30,583 nucleotides of DNA from a virus, in the IMG/VR virus record IMGVR_UViG_3300021960_000329, positions 1 through 30,583 of that record; one strand, given 5' to 3'. Of this stretch, positions 6,485 through 30,583 are shown in pieces. Every line of letters starts with the position of its first letter. Positions within the stretch are counted from its first letter, which is position 1. The notes under the pieces were generated by a model. It saw only the letters and a list, made by a program, of their open reading frames with translations, did no database searches and was not told the origin of the DNA. Position numbers and translations under genes: made by a program.

Positions 6485-8075
6485 ATACTATCTTGGTAAC
6501 CCACTCGTAAAAAGAGATGGTGTTATACAAGACTGGACTCAAGAAGATTTAAAAGAATATGCAAAATGTATGAAAAGTCCTGCATATTTCACAGAAAAAT
6601 ATATTAAGATTATTTCTCTTGATAGAGGTTTAGTGCCTTTTGATTTATATCCTTATCAGAAAAAAATGTTTGAACAGTTTCAAAGCGAACGATTCAACAT
6701 CGTCCTTGCGTGTCGCCAGTCGGGCAAATCTATATCTGCGTGTGCTTATCTACTATGGTTTGCATTATTTAATCCAGATAAAACAATTGCTGTTATGGCA
6801 AACAAAGGTGCAACTGCAAGAGAAATGTTAGGTCGTATCACTCTTATGTTAGAGAATCTGCCTTTCTTTTTACAACCAGGGTGTAAAGCATTAAACAAAG
6901 GGTCAATAGAGTTTTCTAATAATTCTCGTATAGTTGCGGCCGCTACATCAGGTAGTTCTATTCGTGGTATGTCTGTTAACTTACTATATCTTGATGAGTT
7001 TGCGTTTGTTGAACGTGCGGCCGAGTTCTATACATCAACATATCCTGTTGTATCATCTGGTAAAGACACAAAGATTATTGTAACATCTACTGCAAATGGT
7101 GTTGGTAATGTATTCTATAATATATGGCAGGGTGCAGAACAAGGTGTAAATGAATTTAAATCATTTAGAGTTGATTGGTGGGACGTGCCTGGTCGTGATG
7201 AACAATGGAAGATATCTACTATTGCAAACACATCACAACTACAATTTGACCAAGAGTTTGGTAATACATTCTTCGGTACAGGTGATACATTAATTAATGC
7301 AGAAACATTAATGAAACTGAAAGCAAAAAATCCTATTGAAGCACTAGAAGGTGGAAATCTTCTAGTGTATGAAAAGACTCAGAAAAACCATTCATATATT
7401 ATGACGGTCGATGTTTCAAAAGGTAGAGGTCAGGATTATTCTACTTTTACAATAATCGATATATCTACTTCGCCTTTTAGGCAAGTGGCGGTGTATCGCA
7501 ACAATGTTATTTCTCCGATACTCTACCCTAACATTATATATAAGTTTGCGAAAGTCTACAATGATGCATATATTGTTGTAGAAGCAAATGACCAAGGTGG
7601 TATTGTATGTAATGGATTATATCACGACTTCGAATACGAACATATGTATCTTGAATCTGCAGTCAAGGCAGACAAAATTGGTATAGAAATCAATCGTAAA
7701 TCAAAAAGAATCGGTTGCAGTTCATTCAAAGATTTACTTGAAAATAATAAGTTAGAAATAGTTGACCAAGAAACAATTGTAGAAATATCTACATTTGAAG
7801 CAAAAGGCCAGTCGTACGAAGCAACACCAGGTAACCATGATGATTTAGTTATGAATCTTGTATTGTTTGGTTACTTTGTGTACACAGAAGCATTTCAAGA
7901 TTTATCTGATATTAATCTCAAAGAAATGTTATTTGAAGATAGAATGAAACAAATTGAAGAAGATGTTGTCCCATTTGGTTTCCATGATGATGGTTCTAAT
8001 TGGGTTGAAGAAGAAGATAGAAAAAATCAACCTTGGTTTATAACATATGATTATGAAAGAGAGCAAGATTATTGA
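6474..8075 (+). CDS. gp17: Terminase large subunit gp17 (packaging ATPase/nuclease)
   Basis: About 533 residues. The N-terminal ATPase shows Walker A CRQSGKS (about residues 80-86), Walker B LLYLDEF with the catalytic Glu, and the coupling motif TSTANG. The C-terminal RNase H-like nuclease shows the three acidic positions in TVDVSKGRGQD, VVEANDQGG and DDLVMN. It translocates DNA into the prohead through the portal and cuts headful ends. I chose the ATG at 6474 because MQNEYYLGNP fits the family start. In-frame TTG 6453, ATG 6456 and ATG 6465 are also possible, none with a clear ribosome site. Only the T4 C-terminal tail is shorter (T4 610 residues). The overlap with gp16 is 11 bases. Confidence 0.95.
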   Translation: MQNEYYLGNPLVKRDGVIQDWTQEDLKEYAKCMKSPAYFTEKYIKIISLDRGLVPFDLYPYQKKMFEQFQSERFNIVLACRQSGKSISACAYLLWFALFNPDKTIAVMANKGATAREMLGRITLMLENLPFFLQPGCKALNKGSIEFSNNSRIVAAATSGSSIRGMSVNLLYLDEFAFVERAAEFYTSTYPVVSSGKDTKIIVTSTANGVGNVFYNIWQGAEQGVNEFKSFRVDWWDVPGRDEQWKISTIANTSQLQFDQEFGNTFFGTGDTLINAETLMKLKAKNPIEALEGGNLLVYEKTQKNHSYIMTVDVSKGRGQDYSTFTIIDISTSPFRQVAVYRNNVISPILYPNIIYKFAKVYNDAYIVVEANDQGGIVCNGLYHDFEYEHMYLESAVKADKIGIEINRKSKRIGCSSFKDLLENNKLEIVDQETIVEISTFEAKGQSYEATPGNHDDLVMNLVLFGYFVYTEAFQDLSDINLKEMLFEDRMKQIEEDVVPFGFHDDGSNWVEEEDRKNQPWFITYDYEREQDY

Positions 8076-8869
8076 CACTAGAACATGGACTTTTTACTCC
8101 CTCTAAAATACCAGAACTATTAGGTCTTGTATCAATTGTTATAAGTCCAACAGACTTGTGCAATCGTACATGTGAGTTCTGTCCACACTCTATGGGATTC
8201 CCAAATAAAAAGAATTATATGCATATAGTTCTTGCAAATAAACTTGCAGAAGAATTATCTGAACTAAAATGGAATGGTGTGATTAGTATATCTGGATATG
8301 GTGAACCATTACTACACCCAAATATTGACAACATTGTTAAAGCATTTACTAAAAGAAATATTAACACAAGACTTGTAACAAGTGGCGACAGAATATTAAA
8401 TGGTAAATTTACAGCAGAAGAAATAGATAGTTGGGGTCTTTTGTCTATAAAGATTGACTGTTATGATGGTCAAGATGATGTAGATAAGATGAATGAGATA
8501 CTCAAAGACTTAAAAACATATAAGAGAATTACAACTGGACCTACAGACTTATCAAATCGTGCAGGTTATTTGTGGTTTGCAAACAATATAAAAAAACCTT
8601 GTTATCAACCATCACTCAAATCTATTGTTGATTATAATGGTGATGTCTATGTTTGTTGTGAAGATTGGTCTAAAGAAACATCATTTGGTAATGTATACAA
8701 ACAATCATTTTCTTCCATATGGTTATCAGATGAACTACAAGATGTAAGAGAAAAACTACAAAATGGTATAAGAACGTTTTCTGCGTGTAAAAATTGTAAT
8801 ATGATGCCAGAAAATTCTCAAAATGAACAAGAAGCAGTTCAAATTTGGCAAAACTATAAATATATGTAA
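8072..8869 (+). CDS. Radical SAM enzyme with SPASM-like C-terminus (cargo gene)
   Basis: 265 residues. Cys30-x3-Cys34-x2-Cys37 (CNRTCEFC) is the [4Fe-4S] radical SAM motif; SGYGEPLLHP (about 74-83) is the GGEP-type SAM-binding strand. The C-terminal part has Cys177, CC at 195-196 and CKNC at 239-242, as in SPASM or twitch domains that bind extra Fe-S clusters and act on peptides or sugars. The start is a TTG at 8072 overlapping the gene 17 stop; no in-frame ATG precedes the cluster motif and the ribosome site is weak. It lies between terminase and tail sheath, which are usually adjacent in this phage group, so it looks like inserted cargo. The last codons contain the late promoter for gene 18. 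The substrate is unknown; a co-expressed virion protein or host peptide is possible. Confidence 0.85.
   Translation: MTLEHGLFTPSKIPELLGLVSIVISPTDLCNRTCEFCPHSMGFPNKKNYMHIVLANKLAEELSELKWNGVISISGYGEPLLHPNIDNIVKAFTKRNINTRLVTSGDRILNGKFTAEEIDSWGLLSIKIDCYDGQDDVDKMNEILKDLKTYKRITTGPTDLSNRAGYLWFANNIKKPCYQPSLKSIVDYNGDVYVCCEDWSKETSFGNVYKQSFSSIWLSDELQDVREKLQNGIRTFSACKNCNMMPENSQNEQEAVQIWQNYKYM
8855..8862 (+). promoter_or_regulatory. T4-type late promoter (TATAAATA) for tail sheath
   Basis: An exact TATAAATA octamer lies inside the last codons of the radical SAM gene (Asn-Tyr-Lys-Tyr-Met-stop). Transcription would begin near 8869, giving a leader of about 58 bases before gene 18 (ATG 8927), whose ribosome site is AAGGAAA. 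Placement in front of the strongly expressed sheath and tube genes supports function. Its position inside coding sequence leaves some doubt. Confidence 0.7.
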
Positions 8870-21542: not shown

Positions 21543-23252
21543 ATGATAATTTTCAAGTCAATTAAGTATAAAAACTTTTTGTCAACTGGTAATAGTTTCA
21601 CCGAGATAGATTTTACAAAGAGTAAGACAACACTCGTAGTCGGACAAAATGGTGCAGGTAAATCTACTATGTTAGATGCACTATCATTTGCACTCTTTGG
21701 TAAACCTCACAGAAACATACAGAAGAAACAGATAATAAACTCTATTAATAGAAAAGATTGTGTTGTTGAAGCAGAGTTTAGTATCGGTTCGTCTACTTAT
21801 AGAGTAGTACGAGGTATCAACCCTAATCTGTTTGAGATATGGAAATCTGGTACACTAATCAATCAATCTTCTCACGCCAAAGACTATCAAAAGATTTTAG
21901 AACAAAACATCTTGAAACTAAATCATAAATCCTTTCATCAGGTGGTCGTGTTGGGTAGTAGTTCTTTCATTCCTTTCATGCAACTATCCAACACAGACCG
22001 AAAGTTCGTAATAGAGGACTTACTAGACATTAATGTATTCTCTAAAATGAATGTACTACTGAAAGAAAAACAGTCTGCACTCAAGAACGAATTAAACGAA
22101 TTAACGAATAAGATAGAGATTATCAAGGCAAAGATAGACACACAGAACAAGTATATCAAAGACGTACAGATACTTACTGAACAGAATATTAAATCAAAAG
22201 AAAATACCAAGAAGAATAAACAAACAGAAGTAGAAACACTACAAGACGAAAATATAAAACTATCAGAAATAATCGAAACGAAACTACCAGAACTACAAGA
22301 TGAATTACAAAAACTACAAGACAAAAGACAAACATTATTATCTTACACACACCAATTTAAAACACAAATGAAAACATTGGCCAAGGACACAAAGTTCTAT
22401 GAAGAGAACGAACAATGTCCTACCTGTTCTCAAGATATAAGTCAGGAGTTAAGAGATGAAAAAATTACTAACGCCAAAGATAAGGCAAAGGAATTCCAAA
22501 CGGCGTACGACAATGCTACGGAACAAGAAAAGAGTATTGGCGATACAATCGAGGGTGTTAACGTTCACCTAACAGAAATGAGAAACAATCAGAGTACTAT
22601 CAACTCAAACAATAAGATGATAAAGACTCTGCAAAAAGAAATAACAGAAATTGATAAGGACCTGTCAAGTACTGCGATTGCAGACTTACAGCAGGCTCGA
22701 ACAGATTTAGATACCTTGAATAAGGATAAAGATAAGACGACTGAAGATAAACTGAATATCTTCGATATGTATTCTTACAATCAAGTTATCGGCGAGTTAC
22801 TTAAAGATACTGGTATAAAGACGAAAATTATCAAACAATATCTTCCAGTCATTAATAAATTGACTAACCAGTATCTTCAAGTATTAGACTTCTTTGTACA
22901 CTTTGACCTAGACGAATCGTTTAAAGAAACTATTCGTTCAAGACATAGAGATGATTTTAGTTACGACTCATTCTCTGAAGGTGAGAAACAAAGAATCGAC
23001 CTTTCTTTATTGTTTACTTGGCGTCAAATTGCCAAAATGAAAAACTCTGTATCAACAAATTTATTGATACTTGATGAAACATTTGATTCAAGTCTTGACT
23101 ATGATGGTGTAGAGAATCTATTTAAGATACTTCATACACTACCAGATGATAGTAATATATTTGTGATATCGCACAAAGGAGATATTCTTGATGGCAAATT
23201 TGACGACAAGATTGAATTTCATAAAGAAAAAAACTTTAGTAAAATTAAATGA
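21543..23252 (+). CDS. gp46: Recombination endonuclease subunit gp46 (Rad50/SbcC-like)
   Basis: 569 residues (T4: 560). Walker A GQNGAGKS (34-41), a long coiled coil about 170-450 interrupted by the zinc hook CPTC (292-295), ABC signature SFSEGEKQR (about 476-484), Walker B LLILDETFDSS (about 506-516) and the switch His in ISHKGD. It is the ATPase partner of gp47. It starts at the predicted transcription start of its own promoter. Its stop overlaps the first sulfotransferase-like gene in ATGA (23249-23252); in T4 the next major gene would be 45, so three cargo genes are inserted here. Confidence 0.96.
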   Translation: MIIFKSIKYKNFLSTGNSFTEIDFTKSKTTLVVGQNGAGKSTMLDALSFALFGKPHRNIQKKQIINSINRKDCVVEAEFSIGSSTYRVVRGINPNLFEIWKSGTLINQSSHAKDYQKILEQNILKLNHKSFHQVVVLGSSSFIPFMQLSNTDRKFVIEDLLDINVFSKMNVLLKEKQSALKNELNELTNKIEIIKAKIDTQNKYIKDVQILTEQNIKSKENTKKNKQTEVETLQDENIKLSEIIETKLPELQDELQKLQDKRQTLLSYTHQFKTQMKTLAKDTKFYEENEQCPTCSQDISQELRDEKITNAKDKAKEFQTAYDNATEQEKSIGDTIEGVNVHLTEMRNNQSTINSNNKMIKTLQKEITEIDKDLSSTAIADLQQARTDLDTLNKDKDKTTEDKLNIFDMYSYNQVIGELLKDTGIKTKIIKQYLPVINKLTNQYLQVLDFFVHFDLDESFKETIRSRHRDDFSYDSFSEGEKQRIDLSLLFTWRQIAKMKNSVSTNLLILDETFDSSLDYDGVENLFKILHTLPDDSNIFVISHKGDILDGKFDDKIEFHKEKNFSKIK

Positions 23253-23953
23253 AAAACTATACATTGATTGGTTTTCCCAGGACTGGTACTGCGTGGTTTA
23301 AATATCATTTTCGTGAGTATTATGGCAATTCAAATTATTTAGGCGAATATTTTAGTAAATTTGAATATACACATATAGAAAATAATGTATATTATAAAGT
23401 AAGAAGAAACCAATCTTCTCAAAGATATTCTAAAAAAATATCTTTTTTAAATTCAGAAAGAATTAACAATAATGAATATTATATCAAATATATGGTTCAT
23501 CATATAAATGAATTAGATGAAAATTTTCCTAATTGGTGGAATGAATTTTATAAAGACTATGAAAAAATCAAAGTTCTTAATAAAAATGTATGGCGAATAT
23601 TTTTAAGCAATAGTTATCAAGATTATACTAAATGGAAAAAAACAGGAAATTGGAAAGTAAAAAATTTTAAATTAGAAAAATTTTATACTAGTTTTGAATA
23701 TATACAAATTTTTTGTAAGTTATACAATGACTATATTAATTTTGATAGATATGATGTTTTGTTTGATGTGAATAAAATAGACAATGACTTTGTTATGAAT
23801 TATTTAAATAACAATACATATGTTAATAAACCTAGATATATTCACGACTATGAAAAGTATTTGATAAGTGATATTGATTTAGTCAAAGAAGAATTAAAAA
23901 AAGAATTGAAAAAATATAATTTAGAATTTTTAGACAATGGGAAAATACTATAA
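23249..23953 (+). CDS. Sulfotransferase-like protein, paralog 1 of 3
   Basis: 234 residues. The N-terminus KNYTLIGFPRTGTAWFKYHF has the 5'-phosphosulfate P-loop of PAPS-dependent sulfotransferases (consensus PxxGTTW). The middle VWRIFLSNSY is in the place of the Arg...Ser 3'-phosphate motif, and the C-terminal YDVLFDVNKIDNDFVMNYL matches the YEDL...I..FLG region of the family. It is clearly homologous to the next two genes, sharing LGEYF, WWNEFYKDYEKIK and the end DNGKI. It is strikingly AT-rich compared with gene 46. It overlaps gene 46 by four bases and the next paralog by 17. The acceptor (glycan, lipid or protein Tyr) is unknown, as is activity. Confidence 0.72.
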   Translation: MKNYTLIGFPRTGTAWFKYHFREYYGNSNYLGEYFSKFEYTHIENNVYYKVRRNQSSQRYSKKISFLNSERINNNEYYIKYMVHHINELDENFPNWWNEFYKDYEKIKVLNKNVWRIFLSNSYQDYTKWKKTGNWKVKNFKLEKFYTSFEYIQIFCKLYNDYINFDRYDVLFDVNKIDNDFVMNYLNNNTYVNKPRYIHDYEKYLISDIDLVKEELKKELKKYNLEFLDNGKIL

Positions 23954-24608
23954 AAATTATATATTGATTGGATATCCTAGAACAGGTACATCTTGGTTAG
24001 GAACACATTTTATTGAGTATTATGGTAAACCAAATTATTTAGGCGAATATTTTTCGGAAATAAATGATGAGCAATCTTATATTCAAAAAGTTTCTTTTTT
24101 AGAAAAAGAAAGAGAGATAAATCAAGAGGAATATTACATCAAATATTTATTCTATCAAATGAAAGAGATAGAACAATTTTATCCTAATTGGTTTGATAAT
24201 TTTTATAAAGATTTTGAAAAAGTTAAACTATTAAATAAAAATGTATGGCGAATATTTTTAAGTCAAAACTATCAATTAGAAAATGATAAATTTGAAAGCG
24301 GTAGTTGGAAAATACCTGATTATAAATTAAAACAATTCTCCGTTAGTTTAAATCAAATAAAGAAATTTGCAAAAGATTATTCTGATTTTTATTATTATAG
24401 TAAGTATAATACTTTATTAGATTACGATAAAATAGATAATGAGTATATGATGAAATATTTAGGAACAAAGACTTATAGGAAAAGAAACAGATATATCCAC
24501 GACTACGAAAGTTTTTTGTTAGGTGATATTAATTTAATAAAAGATAGTTTAAAAAAAGAATTTGCAAGATATAATATAGAAATGTTAGACAATGGAAAAA
24601 TCTCGTAA
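23937..24608 (+). CDS. Sulfotransferase-like protein, paralog 2 of 3
   Basis: 223 residues. It repeats the plan of the upstream gene: P-loop LIGYPRTGTSWLGTHF, then NYLGEYF, a FYKDFEKVKLLNKNVWRIFLS middle segment starting near residue 95, and the C-terminal YNTLLDYDKIDNEYMMKYLG. The start ATG lies inside the last codons (Asn-Gly of DNGKI) of paralog 1, and its own end DNGKI contains the start of paralog 3, the footprint of tandem duplication. No ribosome site is present, so translation is probably coupled to the upstream gene. Strong AT bias as in the neighbours. The conserved catalytic-region Ser/Thr of the P-loop is intact, so it may be active. Confidence 0.72.
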   Translation: MGKYYKNYILIGYPRTGTSWLGTHFIEYYGKPNYLGEYFSEINDEQSYIQKVSFLEKEREINQEEYYIKYLFYQMKEIEQFYPNWFDNFYKDFEKVKLLNKNVWRIFLSQNYQLENDKFESGSWKIPDYKLKQFSVSLNQIKKFAKDYSDFYYYSKYNTLLDYDKIDNEYMMKYLGTKTYRKRNRYIHDYESFLLGDINLIKDSLKKEFARYNIEMLDNGKIS

Positions 24609-25248
24609 AAATTATGTGCTAATAGGTTATCAAAGGTCAGGTACAACTTGGTTAAGTATGCATTTTCGCAGATATTATGGAAAAGAAAAAAGTTTAGGCG
24701 AATGGTTTGGAGAAACTACAAAGATAAGTTTTCAAGAAAAAATTTCTTTTTTAGAAGATGAAAGAAAAAAAGGTGAAGAATATTTTATAAAATGGATGGT
24801 TCATCAAATACAGAATTGTTCAGAATGGTGGAATGAATTTTATAAAGACTACGAAAAAATAAAATTATTAAATCTTAATGTTTGGGATATTTTTTTAAGT
24901 GAAACATATCAAAGACATATAAAATGGACCTATACAAATCTTTGGATGGAAAAAGAATTCAATATGACAAATTTTTCTGTAGATTTAAAATGGATAAAAC
25001 AATTTGTTCAACAGTATATTGAATATTTAAAATTTAGAAACTACAACACAATTTTTAATTATGATAAGATAACAGATGAATATGTTATGAATTATTTAGG
25101 AAATGAGGAATATAAATTTATTAAAATATATAGAAAAGATTATGAAAAATATTTAATTGAAGATGTAGAACTTATAAAAAATTGTTTAATAAAAGAATTA
25201 GAAAAAAATGGAATAAATTGTTTACAAAATGGAAAAATTAAGTTATAA
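24592..25248 (+). CDS. Sulfotransferase-like protein, paralog 3 of 3
   Basis: 218 residues. The P-loop LIGYQRSGTTWLSMHF is closest to the sulfotransferase consensus (SGTTW). Then come LGEWF, WWNEFYKDYEKIKLLNLNVW, DIFLSETY (Asp replaces the Arg seen at this position in paralogs 1 and 2, so the 3'-phosphate site may differ) and the C-terminal YNTIFNYDKITDEYVMNYLG. The protein ends QNGKIKL; the corresponding ATG is present there but opens only a short frame, suggesting a former junction. The last codons hold both boxes of the gene 45 promoter. The three differ enough to suggest different acceptors, but that is speculation. Confidence 0.72.
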   Translation: MEKSRKNYVLIGYQRSGTTWLSMHFRRYYGKEKSLGEWFGETTKISFQEKISFLEDERKKGEEYFIKWMVHQIQNCSEWWNEFYKDYEKIKLLNLNVWDIFLSETYQRHIKWTYTNLWMEKEFNMTNFSVDLKWIKQFVQQYIEYLKFRNYNTIFNYDKITDEYVMNYLGNEEYKFIKIYRKDYEKYLIEDVELIKNCLIKELEKNGINCLQNGKIKL

Positions 25249-27134: not shown

Positions 27135-27567
27135 AATAGGATTCACTTGTTCTACATTCGACTTGTTTCATGCAGGTCATGTGGCGATGTTGAAAGAATG
27201 TAAAGCAAATTGCGACTATCTGATTGTGGGTTTACAGACTGACCCAAGTATTGATAGAGAAGAAAAGAATAAACCTGTACAAAGTATCGTAGAACGATAT
27301 GTACAATTGTCTGCATGTAAGTATGTAGATGAGATTGTGCCATACGAAACAGAAAAAGATTTATTAGATTATCTTAAACTACACGAGAAAACAATAGATG
27401 TTCGTTTTGTTGGTGAAGAATATGCAGATAAAGACTTCACAGGTAGAGAATTATGCTCATCAGGTTATACTCTTGATGCAGATAAAATGCAACTGTTCTT
27501 AAATAGAAGAAGTCATAGTTTCAGTTCATCAGAATTACGAGAAAGAATTAAAAATGCATCTTCTTAA
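27118..27567 (+). CDS. Cytidylyltransferase-like protein (TagD/glycerol-3-phosphate type)
   Basis: 149 residues, the full size of a single-domain nucleotidyltransferase. The motif FDLFHAGHVAML (HxGH at 18-21) and the C-terminal SFSSSELRERI (the SSSxLR counterpart of ISSTxxR) define the family, which transfers CMP or AMP to a phosphate such as glycerol 3-phosphate or to related sugar or alcohol phosphates. The middle NKPVQSIVERYVQLSACKYV is also typical of TagD-like enzymes. It overlaps gene 44 by 17 bases and the next radical SAM gene by 14. Phage copies could feed surface polymer or lipid head-group changes; the substrate cannot be read from the sequence. Confidence 0.82.
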   Translation: MSNSNKIGFTCSTFDLFHAGHVAMLKECKANCDYLIVGLQTDPSIDREEKNKPVQSIVERYVQLSACKYVDEIVPYETEKDLLDYLKLHEKTIDVRFVGEEYADKDFTGRELCSSGYTLDADKMQLFLNRRSHSFSSSELRERIKNASS

Positions 27568-28183
27568 AAGTTCTCAATATTTTTCTAGAGGTGTAAATAT
27601 AGACATAAGTAACAAATGTATTTTACAATGTCCTGCTTGTGATAGACAAACAAACAGAAGTATGGTTCATAAAGCAAAAGACATAACTTTAGAAAATTAC
27701 GAAAAACTTTTAGATACTTTCCCCAAAATAATTATGTGCGGTCAAATATCTGACCCCATATATCACCCTAAATTTTTAGAATTATTAAAGATGTCTAAAA
27801 AATTAAAACTACTTGATATCTCGACTAATGGTTCTGGTAAAAAAGAAAAGTGGTGGGAAGAAGCATTTAATATAGGAATAGAAAATAAAAATACTGAATG
27901 GAGATTTGCACTTGATGGTTTACCTAGTGAAAGTCATATTTATAGAATAAATCAAAAAGGTGAACAAGTTTGGGAAATGATGAAAATGGGAAGAGAAATG
28001 GGTGCTAATATAACTTGGCAATATATTCCTTTTCTTTATAATGAAAATCATGTTGATGAAGCATTGCAATTAGCAAAAGAATATGGTATGAAGTTTTTAT
28101 TAAAGATATCAAGTAGACACCCAGAAGGTATGAAACCTAGTAAAAAGGAGTTAAGAATTGACAGAATCAGAGTCAAAGATTAA
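27554..28183 (+). CDS. Radical SAM enzyme, N-terminal catalytic part of a split gene
   Basis: 209 residues. Cys22-x3-Cys26-x2-Cys29 (CILQCPAC) binds the [4Fe-4S] cluster; GQISDPIYHPKF replaces the usual GGEP motif at about 56-67; LDISTNGSG follows and WRFALDGLPSESH fits the next strand of the barrel. The barrel seems to end just before the stop at 28183, and the SPASM-like Cys region expected next is encoded in another frame starting at TTG 28158. The two pieces together (about 310 residues) are the normal length of such an enzyme. It is more AT-rich than genes 44 and 62. The substrate is unknown; with the cytidylyltransferase-like gene it could act in surface or peptide modification. Confidence 0.78.
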   Translation: MHLLKSSQYFSRGVNIDISNKCILQCPACDRQTNRSMVHKAKDITLENYEKLLDTFPKIIMCGQISDPIYHPKFLELLKMSKKLKLLDISTNGSGKKEKWWEEAFNIGIENKNTEWRFALDGLPSESHIYRINQKGEQVWEMMKMGREMGANITWQYIPFLYNENHVDEALQLAKEYGMKFLLKISSRHPEGMKPSKKELRIDRIRVKD

Positions 28184-29721: not shown

Positions 29722-30344
29722 TGTTTGAAGCAGATGAATCTTTTATTGATATATGTAACAAAAATATAGAACTAATAAGTCAAGTAAAAGATGATGTTAA
29801 ACCTGTAAAACTTAATTCCTTTTCTAATTTTAAAAAATATGAAGATGAATTTTTTTTACAGTTTAATCATTTTTCTAAAAAAAGATATTTAAAATATCTA
29901 AAAAAAAATCTTATTGAAGACTTTGATGAAAATCAAAGAACAAAGTTAAACATAAAAGATGAAAAATCAAGTGTTCCTAATGAGAAACATTGGGTAGAAG
30001 ATATACCTGTTGTAAAGAAATTATCTGAACATTTATATTCTAAAATTTTTAATACACACTCAATCGTTATTTGGACTAGCATTAGTGAAAATGATAAAGG
30101 AACAGATTGGCATAAAGATTTTAATAATGAGGGTGTACCCACATATTTAATATGTGCAAATATAATAGGAAATACTCACTGGCAATTTAAAGATTATGAT
30201 GATATTTATATGTCTGCTGGTGATATGTTAGTTATAAATGGTAGTGTTGAGCATAAAGTAACAACAAAAGATTTAAGAGTAACTCTTGCAGGACACTCTA
30301 ATTATAATAATTTAAAAAAAGTATTTACTTTTAATGAATTCTAA
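29721..30344 (+). CDS. 2OG-Fe(II) oxygenase-like (cupin) protein
   Basis: 207 residues. His131-x-Asp133 (WHKDFN), a distal His178 (GSVEHKV) and Arg186 (DLRVTLAGHSN) form the metal- and 2-oxoglutarate-binding pattern of the Fe(II) dioxygenase double-stranded beta-helix. Strands between (PTYLICANIIG, HWQFKD, MSAGDMLVING) fit the fold. The N-terminal 90 residues are lysine-rich and unlike anything I recognise. It would hydroxylate a nucleic acid base, protein or small molecule. It is very AT-rich, starts in a TAATG overlap, and its 3' end holds the -35 box of the hsp20 promoter. Function beyond the fold is unknown. Confidence 0.65.
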   Translation: MFEADESFIDICNKNIELISQVKDDVKPVKLNSFSNFKKYEDEFFLQFNHFSKKRYLKYLKKNLIEDFDENQRTKLNIKDEKSSVPNEKHWVEDIPVVKKLSEHLYSKIFNTHSIVIWTSISENDKGTDWHKDFNNEGVPTYLICANIIGNTHWQFKDYDDIYMSAGDMLVINGSVEHKVTTKDLRVTLAGHSNYNNLKKVFTFNEF

Positions 30345-30352
30345 TTTATAAT
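30324..30352 (+). promoter_or_regulatory. Sigma70-type promoter for hsp20
   Basis: TTTACT (30324-30329), 17 bases, TATAAT (30347-30352). The -35 box is in the last codons of the oxygenase-like gene; the -10 box is just after its stop. Transcription should start near 30359, so the hsp20 leader would be about 65 bases, the longest in the window. A second TATAAT at 30360-30365 has no matching -35. Confidence 0.78.
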
Positions 30353-30368
30353 TCGTATATATAATAAT

Positions 30369-30426
30369 GAGTACCGAGTTATCGGGCTCTATTCTACAAC
30401 CTTGCTTTTATTAGGAGGAAACTATG
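30369..30426 (+). promoter_or_regulatory. Candidate ROSE-type RNA thermometer in the hsp20 leader
   Basis: Two hairpins fit the leader. The first pairs GAG (30369-30371) with CTC (30387-30389) and CCGA (30374-30377) with TCGG (30382-30385) around a GTTA loop. The second pairs CCUUGCU (30400-30406) with the ribosome site AGGAGG (30413-30418): C-G, C-G, U-A, U-G, G-G, a bulged C and U-A, loop UUUAUU. This is the conserved UUGCU/AGGA arrangement of ROSE elements, which hide the ribosome site until heat melts it. A competing pairing of UUGCUU (30402-30407) with AAGCAA (30429-30434) is also possible. Confidence 0.6.
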
Positions 30427-30583
30427 GTAAGCAATACTTTTACGTTCCCACGAGGGGCGTTTGTCGGTTTCGACCACATCTTCAATGATTTAGAACGAAT
30501 GGCAACTTCTCATCAGAAGGACCATTACCCACCTCATAATGTGGTGAAACTGAATGATGACCAATTCATTATAGAATTGGCAC
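30424..30583 (+). CDS. hsp20: Small heat shock protein Hsp20/IbpA (3' partial)
   Basis: The first 53 residues are in the window. FPRGAFVGFDHIFNDLERMA followed by PPHNVVKLNDDQFIIELA is the start of IbpA-type small heat shock proteins, with the beginning of the alpha-crystallin domain; the remainder lies past the window end. Such genes are carried by marine T4-like phages, where the chaperone may hold unfolded phage or host proteins. The ATG follows the near-perfect ribosome site AGGAGG at five bases. It has its own sigma70-type promoter and a structured leader. Confidence 0.88.
   Translation, partial: MVSNTFTFPRGAFVGFDHIFNDLERMATSHQKDHYPPHNVVKLNDDQFIIELA

Follow-up and report, generated by a model that had tools for sequence, protein, structure and literature searches.

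An hsp20 gene lies at the end of the viral DNA stretch analyzed here (the window; 30,583 nucleotides, IMG/VR record IMGVR_UViG_3300021960_000329), and the question it raises is whether its leader is an RNA thermometer of the ROSE type, as the initial annotation proposed. The gene encodes an IbpA-type small heat shock protein. Its ATG is located at position 30424, five bases after the Shine-Dalgarno (SD) sequence AGGAGG, and the first 53 codons (30424 to 30583, plus strand) are present before the window end truncates it. The leader is probably a thermometer of the ROSE type, with the short ROSE_3 elements of proteobacterial ibpA genes as its homologues; here it is combined with an IbpA-type hsp20 in a T4-like marine phage.

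Comparison of the major capsid protein assigned the window, a genome fragment, to a T4-like marine phage. The closest homologues were those of Phage C48C1 (68%), Pelagibacter phage HTVC008M (62%), and the Methylophilales phages Melnitz (61%). Two viral contigs, L001 and L002, encode 53 amino acids identical to the N terminus of the window Hsp20, and the full-length protein of L001 matched the Pfam HSP20 family (PF00011, E 6e-18). A DNA-level search of the region against phage records returned chance-like matches only. Several other features of these genomes were observed in passing. Three tandem paralogous ORFs at 23249 to 25248, sharing the pattern ..NYxLIGxxRTGTxW.., have the look of P-loop sulfotransferases by eye; the first of them gave no match in Pfam. 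Two radical SAM proteins are encoded among structural and replication genes, at 8072 to 8869 (with a SPASM domain) and at 27554 to 28183 (below the Pfam cutoff). In L009, a contig from a close relative of the window phage, a glutamine riboswitch (RF01739; 48.6 bits, above the cutoff) occupies positions 1142 to 1190 of the minus strand, immediately upstream of hsp20 and on the opposite strand.

The leader (30369 to 30423) contains two hairpins on the plus strand. Hairpin 1 (30369 to 30389), which is backed by folding, covariation, and ROSE_3 matches in relatives, is formed by the pairs G30369-C30389, A-U, G-C, U30372-G30386, C30374-G30385, C-G, G-C, and A30377-U30382, with A30373 bulged. In strand order, it consists of GAG, the U-G pair, the bulged A, CCGA, the loop GUUA, UCGG, and CUC. 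The second hairpin that the initial annotation had placed upstream of the SD hairpin is thus real. A linker of ten bases (30390 to 30399), single stranded in the leader fold as well as in ROSE_3, leads to hairpin 2 (30400 to 30418). The 5' strand of hairpin 2 is the anti-SD sequence CCUUGCU (30400 to 30406), which includes the ROSE block UUGCU (30402 to 30406). It is followed by the six-nucleotide loop UUUAUU (30407 to 30412) and by the SD itself (AGGAGG, 30413 to 30418), which was recognized from the sequence, the fold, and a covariance model and forms the 3' strand. The irregular pairing proposed across this loop is possible, in the form C-G, C-G, U-A, U-G, G.G, bulged C, U-A. The bases for the ROSE-type G.G pair (G30404 and G30414) and for the bulged C (C30405) are present; the alternative, a C-G pair with the G bulged, is the form drawn by the standard energy model. 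In the phage leaders, both hairpins contain YRC facing GG.

Scanning the window with Rfam yielded nothing at the gathering cutoffs and nothing relevant at E values up to 10, and the ROSE_3 model (RF02523; gathering cutoff, 43 bits) searched alone gave no match there either. A claim made from the window alone would have a short motif as its basis. When twenty phage loci were scanned permissively with Rfam, ROSE_3 was the one thermometer family that appeared. The matches to L199 (35.8 bits, E 7.5e-4), Melnitz (L083; 34.1 bits, E 0.002), and C48C1 (L082; 26.8 bits) end at the hsp20 start; others were to L328 (26.9 bits) and L224 (25.4 bits), and there were weaker ones. A further scan gave a match of 29.2 bits in MED4-213 (L417), likewise ending at the hsp20 start. 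Overall, matches in relatives scored 20 to 36 bits, with E values down to 1e-4, and nearly all lay on the leader and ended at the hsp20 start. No scanned phage leader reached the 43-bit cutoff. In these relatives, both phage hairpins align to the ROSE_3 consensus: consensus hairpin 1, GGAUGCCGAAgUCGGGUCc, corresponds to phage hairpin 1, and its arms GGAUGCCGAA..UCGGGUCC are matched. The classical ROSE models in Rfam matched neither the window nor the scanned phage loci.

The leader was compared across a broad set of phages. A search with the 53-amino-acid fragment gave 80 viral loci, three further searches with cyanophage and methylophage Hsp20 proteins gave 240 loci, and seven isolate or single-cell records were added to the leader set. 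A U(U/C)GCU-type block opposite the SD was found in 322 of 323 phage hsp20 leaders, which supports the proposed ROSE-type architecture and its conservation. The initial annotation had named the joint absence of a covariance-model match and of conservation as evidence against a ROSE element; the window indeed lacked an Rfam match, but the pairing is conserved. We defined the hairpin 2 pattern as N-C/U-U-U/C-G/A-C-U/A, a loop, and then NGGAGN immediately before the start. All 106 dereplicated phage hsp20 leaders carried it, compared with 6 of 132 other ORFs with a GGAG-type SD at the same loci. Hairpin 1 recurred in the form stem, Y-R-C, stem, loop, stem, G-G, stem. Its strict version, with the YRC/GG internal motif, was present in 94 of the 106 leaders, whereas 2.6 were expected from dinucleotide shuffles; among 635 regions upstream of other ORFs, it occurred in 14. 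The pattern precedes hsp20 in cyanophages, methylophages, and pelagiphage HTVC008M and also in two members of other phage groups, the Agrobacterium jumbo phage Atu_ph07 and the Pseudomonas phage Deifobo.

Some records depart from this picture or need care in their assignment. The standard pattern is absent from the hsp20 leader of S-TIM5, where CCACGCU stands opposite AGGUGG before the gene (L421:290-370); this is possibly a compensated variant in which an otherwise invariant U-A pair has become A-U. In the clade L047 to L056, UUACU replaces UUGCU, with A in place of the ROSE G, and the remainder of the element is kept. Several phage-type hsp20 elements, including L329 and L330 (genome G007), come from a bin named Rhodobacteraceae bacterium Water_Bin34; one of its leaders is identical to that of viral contig L305, and the bin probably includes phage contigs alongside those of the bacterium. 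L397, a contig titled Nonlabens xiamenensis, holds a cyanophage-type hsp20 leader and is probably a cyanophage contaminant.

Covariation was evaluated in both hairpins. A MAFFT alignment of 52 leaders (A1) misaligned the SD, and pair counts were taken from anchored parsing and from a model-based alignment (A4). On a tree of the Hsp20 proteins, hairpin 1 pairs co-changed on 15, 16, and 16 branches, figures that are somewhat flattered because the parser seeks pairing, although the shuffle control relied on a search of this type as well. In hairpin 2, the outer pair (N1-N6) follows the end of the SD: an SD ending in GG goes with C-G, and one ending in GA with U-A. This outer pair was paired in 75% of cases versus 49% in shuffles and co-changed on 7 branches (P 3e-3), four of these changes being pair to pair. 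The loop-side U-A pair is switched to A-U in leaders with CCUUGCA and UGGAGG, and this pair (U7-A1) co-changed on 2 branches. As the core pairs of hairpin 2 are nearly invariant, its covariation evidence is modest, whereas that for hairpin 1 is strong. In A4, which was fitted to the model and leans towards the structure, 96.1% of cells were paired and 206 were changed on both sides, compared with 55.5 in shuffles and with 4 to 44 when the partner was slid. A covariance model (R1) was also built from eight leaders (L012, L017, L024, L034, L067, L079, L254, and L297), leaving out the window and its closest relatives, L001 to L009. It found the window leader at 30366 to 30418 with 37.3 bits (E 3.3e-8), the next-best place in the window scoring 9.8 bits. 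It also found most of 100 other loci, weakly in cyanophages, and on the whole genomes of C48C1 and Melnitz the hsp20 leader was its sole match at E values up to 1.

The transcription signals differ from those first proposed. The sigma70-type promoter of the initial annotation (TTTACT at 30324 and TATAAT at 30347 to 30352) is at chance level, with 1 such site found versus 1.8 expected. A T4-type late promoter-like box, TATATATA, is located at 30356 to 30363 on the plus strand, at the position that TATAWATA takes before hairpin 1 in relatives. In 54 of 100 dereplicated phage leaders, TATAWATA ends 3 to 8 nucleotides before hairpin 1, compared with 0.85% of control stretches; the motif alone showed no enrichment over the whole window. 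Judged by its placement, this box is the better promoter candidate. It would start transcription near hairpin 1 and give a leader of about 55 nucleotides rather than the earlier estimate of about 65. The position of the box makes transcription late in infection likely, and the hsp20 gene would then likely combine late transcription with a translational gate.

Folding energies were computed with an energy model that lacks the ROSE G.G pair and is therefore not decisive here. Hairpin 2 alone had a predicted energy of -4.5 kcal/mol at 20°C and -2.0 kcal/mol at 37°C, weaker than the -4.1 to -7.6 reported for Pseudomonas (PMC3669281); weaker hairpins would fit a lower set point in cool seawater. 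For a leader ending at the ATG, the unpaired fraction of the SD predicted by this model without the noncanonical ROSE pairs rose from 9% at 20°C to 24% at 50°C. The modeled opening of hairpin 2 is gradual, and the result is sensitive to the inclusion of coding sequence. When 30 coding nucleotides were added, UUGCUU (30402 to 30407) paired in the model with AAGCAA (30429 to 30434, codons 2 to 5), and the SD was 61 to 66% unpaired throughout the range of 4 to 50°C, again without ROSE pairs.

This last fold raises the alternative that, in the clade of the window, the regulated structure is a hairpin between UUGCUU and the coding AAGCAA that shuts the start codon, and not the ROSE hairpin. It is the predicted minimum-energy fold of the window leader plus 30 coding nucleotides, and in the same model anti-SD/coding pairing was preferred in 38 of 106 leaders. 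However, the other 68 of the 106 favored SD pairing at 20°C, the model is the one without the ROSE G.G pair, and the AAGCAA complement is absent in many relatives, which begin their coding sequence differently but retain the pattern opposite the SD. We therefore regard a start-codon hairpin as improbable. Less probable still is that the leader arrived with the ibpA gene and is now inert, a constitutive 5' hairpin with a strong SD. The thermodynamic weakness of hairpin 2 in the window would suit such a remnant, and a late-type promoter could by itself set expression. Yet neutral remains would hardly persist in 322 of 323 leaders from deeply diverged phages, and both the paired changes in the two hairpins and the occurrence of the pattern in other phage families (Atu_ph07 and Deifobo) argue against inertness.

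A more serious competitor, though in our estimate an unlikely one, is that the RNA structure is mainly a binding site for protein. Phage or host Hsp20/IbpA would bind the leader and repress its own translation, and unfolded or overproduced proteins late in infection would titrate Hsp20 away and release the mRNA. IbpA proteins of E. coli, Cedecea, and Vibrio repress translation through ibpA 5' untranslated regions and need R93 and an aromatic residue at position 34 (PMC10474464). Of 226 distinct phage Hsp20 proteins that contain the anchor, 211 have R and 15 have K at the R93 position; Y occupies position 34 in 230 of 231. The window Hsp20, cut by the window end, shows only Y34; L001, with the same first 53 amino acids, has the R. 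Strong structural constraint acts on hairpin 1, a part of the leader that does not include the SD, and would also fit a function of this kind. Against it, R93 and Y34 are widespread in the IbpA proteins of alpha- and gammaproteobacteria in any case, R93K is inactive in E. coli while C48C1 and the L059 group have K, and phages nearly always have S, G, T, or A at the position of K98. Such aggregation control can act alongside a thermometer, and the two may coexist.

The thermometer reading thus remains the preferred one. The element is a real, conserved ROSE-type structure, homologous to ROSE_3 although below the Rfam cutoff, in a setting that had gone unreported: the open-access papers searched on RNA thermometers in phages and cyanophages describe no ROSE element in a phage, nor do those on the small heat shock proteins of cyanophages refer to one. 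Its thermometer function is strongly suggested, and its temperature response is what we infer from this likeness. In the proposed mechanism, a late-type promoter, judging from the motif position, would produce the hsp20 mRNA. In a cool cell, hairpin 2 would tie the SD to the UUGCU strand through weak and noncanonical pairs and hold translation down. By analogy with ROSE_3, warming would loosen hairpin 2, so that the ribosome binds and Hsp20 is made, and hairpin 1 would stay folded at the 5' end, where it probably guides folding or protects the mRNA. To say that Hsp20 is translated under heat or stress alone overstates the case, since ROSE_3 elements are leaky at low temperatures (PMC3669281).

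The presence of the same leader before hsp20 in hundreds of other phages suggests a phage-borne temperature-sensing switch for their own chaperone. Over 90% of T4-like cyanophages are reported to carry hsp20 (PMC10665884), and a conserved thermometer before it offers a testable answer to the timing of Hsp20 production in infection and would link phage replication to water temperature. The phage leaders would also offer a large natural collection of thermometer variants, drawn from cold as well as warm waters. As a tentative extension, with the balance tilting somewhat against it, hsp20-bearing phages in general (marine T4-like phages of cyanobacteria, SAR11, and methylotrophs, and some jumbo phages) may carry a leader of proteobacterial ROSE type, even in cyanobacterial hosts. 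It would meter a late chaperone by temperature and perhaps, through Hsp20-leader binding, by aggregation.

Among known systems, ROSE_3 is the closest. It was described for Pseudomonas ibpA as two hairpins, of which the second melts and is alone sufficient for thermoregulation and the first stays folded; the leaders from five Pseudomonas species are thermometers with 3.3- to 8.3-fold induction from 25 to 42°C (PMC3669281). The phage leader shares the two hairpins, the hairpin 1 type GGAUGCCG..CGGGUCC with its YRC/GG internal motif, a hairpin 2 in which U(U/C)GCU stands opposite the SD, and the location immediately upstream of an ibpA-type gene. It differs in being phage borne, in having a T4-type late box instead of a sigma-32 promoter, in its weaker hairpin 2, and in scoring below the Rfam cutoff. 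The G-C pairs reported on both sides of the SD/anti-SD core in Pseudomonas were not found: the loop-side closing pair is mostly U-A, and the outer pair is C-G in the window and U-A in many relatives. A search of bacterial genome collections with the Melnitz protein as the query showed the same two-hairpin layout, with UUGCU opposite the SD, in ibpA leaders of SAR11, Sphingomonadales, and other Alphaproteobacteria (L340, L345, L354, L358, L351, and L398), where the genes, unlike those of the phages, are chromosomal. A tree of phage and bacterial Hsp20 proteins was poorly resolved and supports no statement on how often, or in which direction, the gene was transferred. Classical ROSE elements of rhizobia and enterobacteria likewise place U(U/C)GCU opposite the SD before a small heat shock gene but have three to four hairpins (PMC3669281), compared with two in the phage leader. 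The self-repression of E. coli IbpA involves the same gene family, a leader with thermometer properties, and key residues mostly present in phage Hsp20; it is, however, protein mediated, and RNA binding by phage Hsp20 is putative. The lambda cIII thermometer is also a temperature-dependent leader in a phage (PMC4166951), but its structure is bistable and unrelated; it closes upon warming and governs the choice between lysis and lysogeny.
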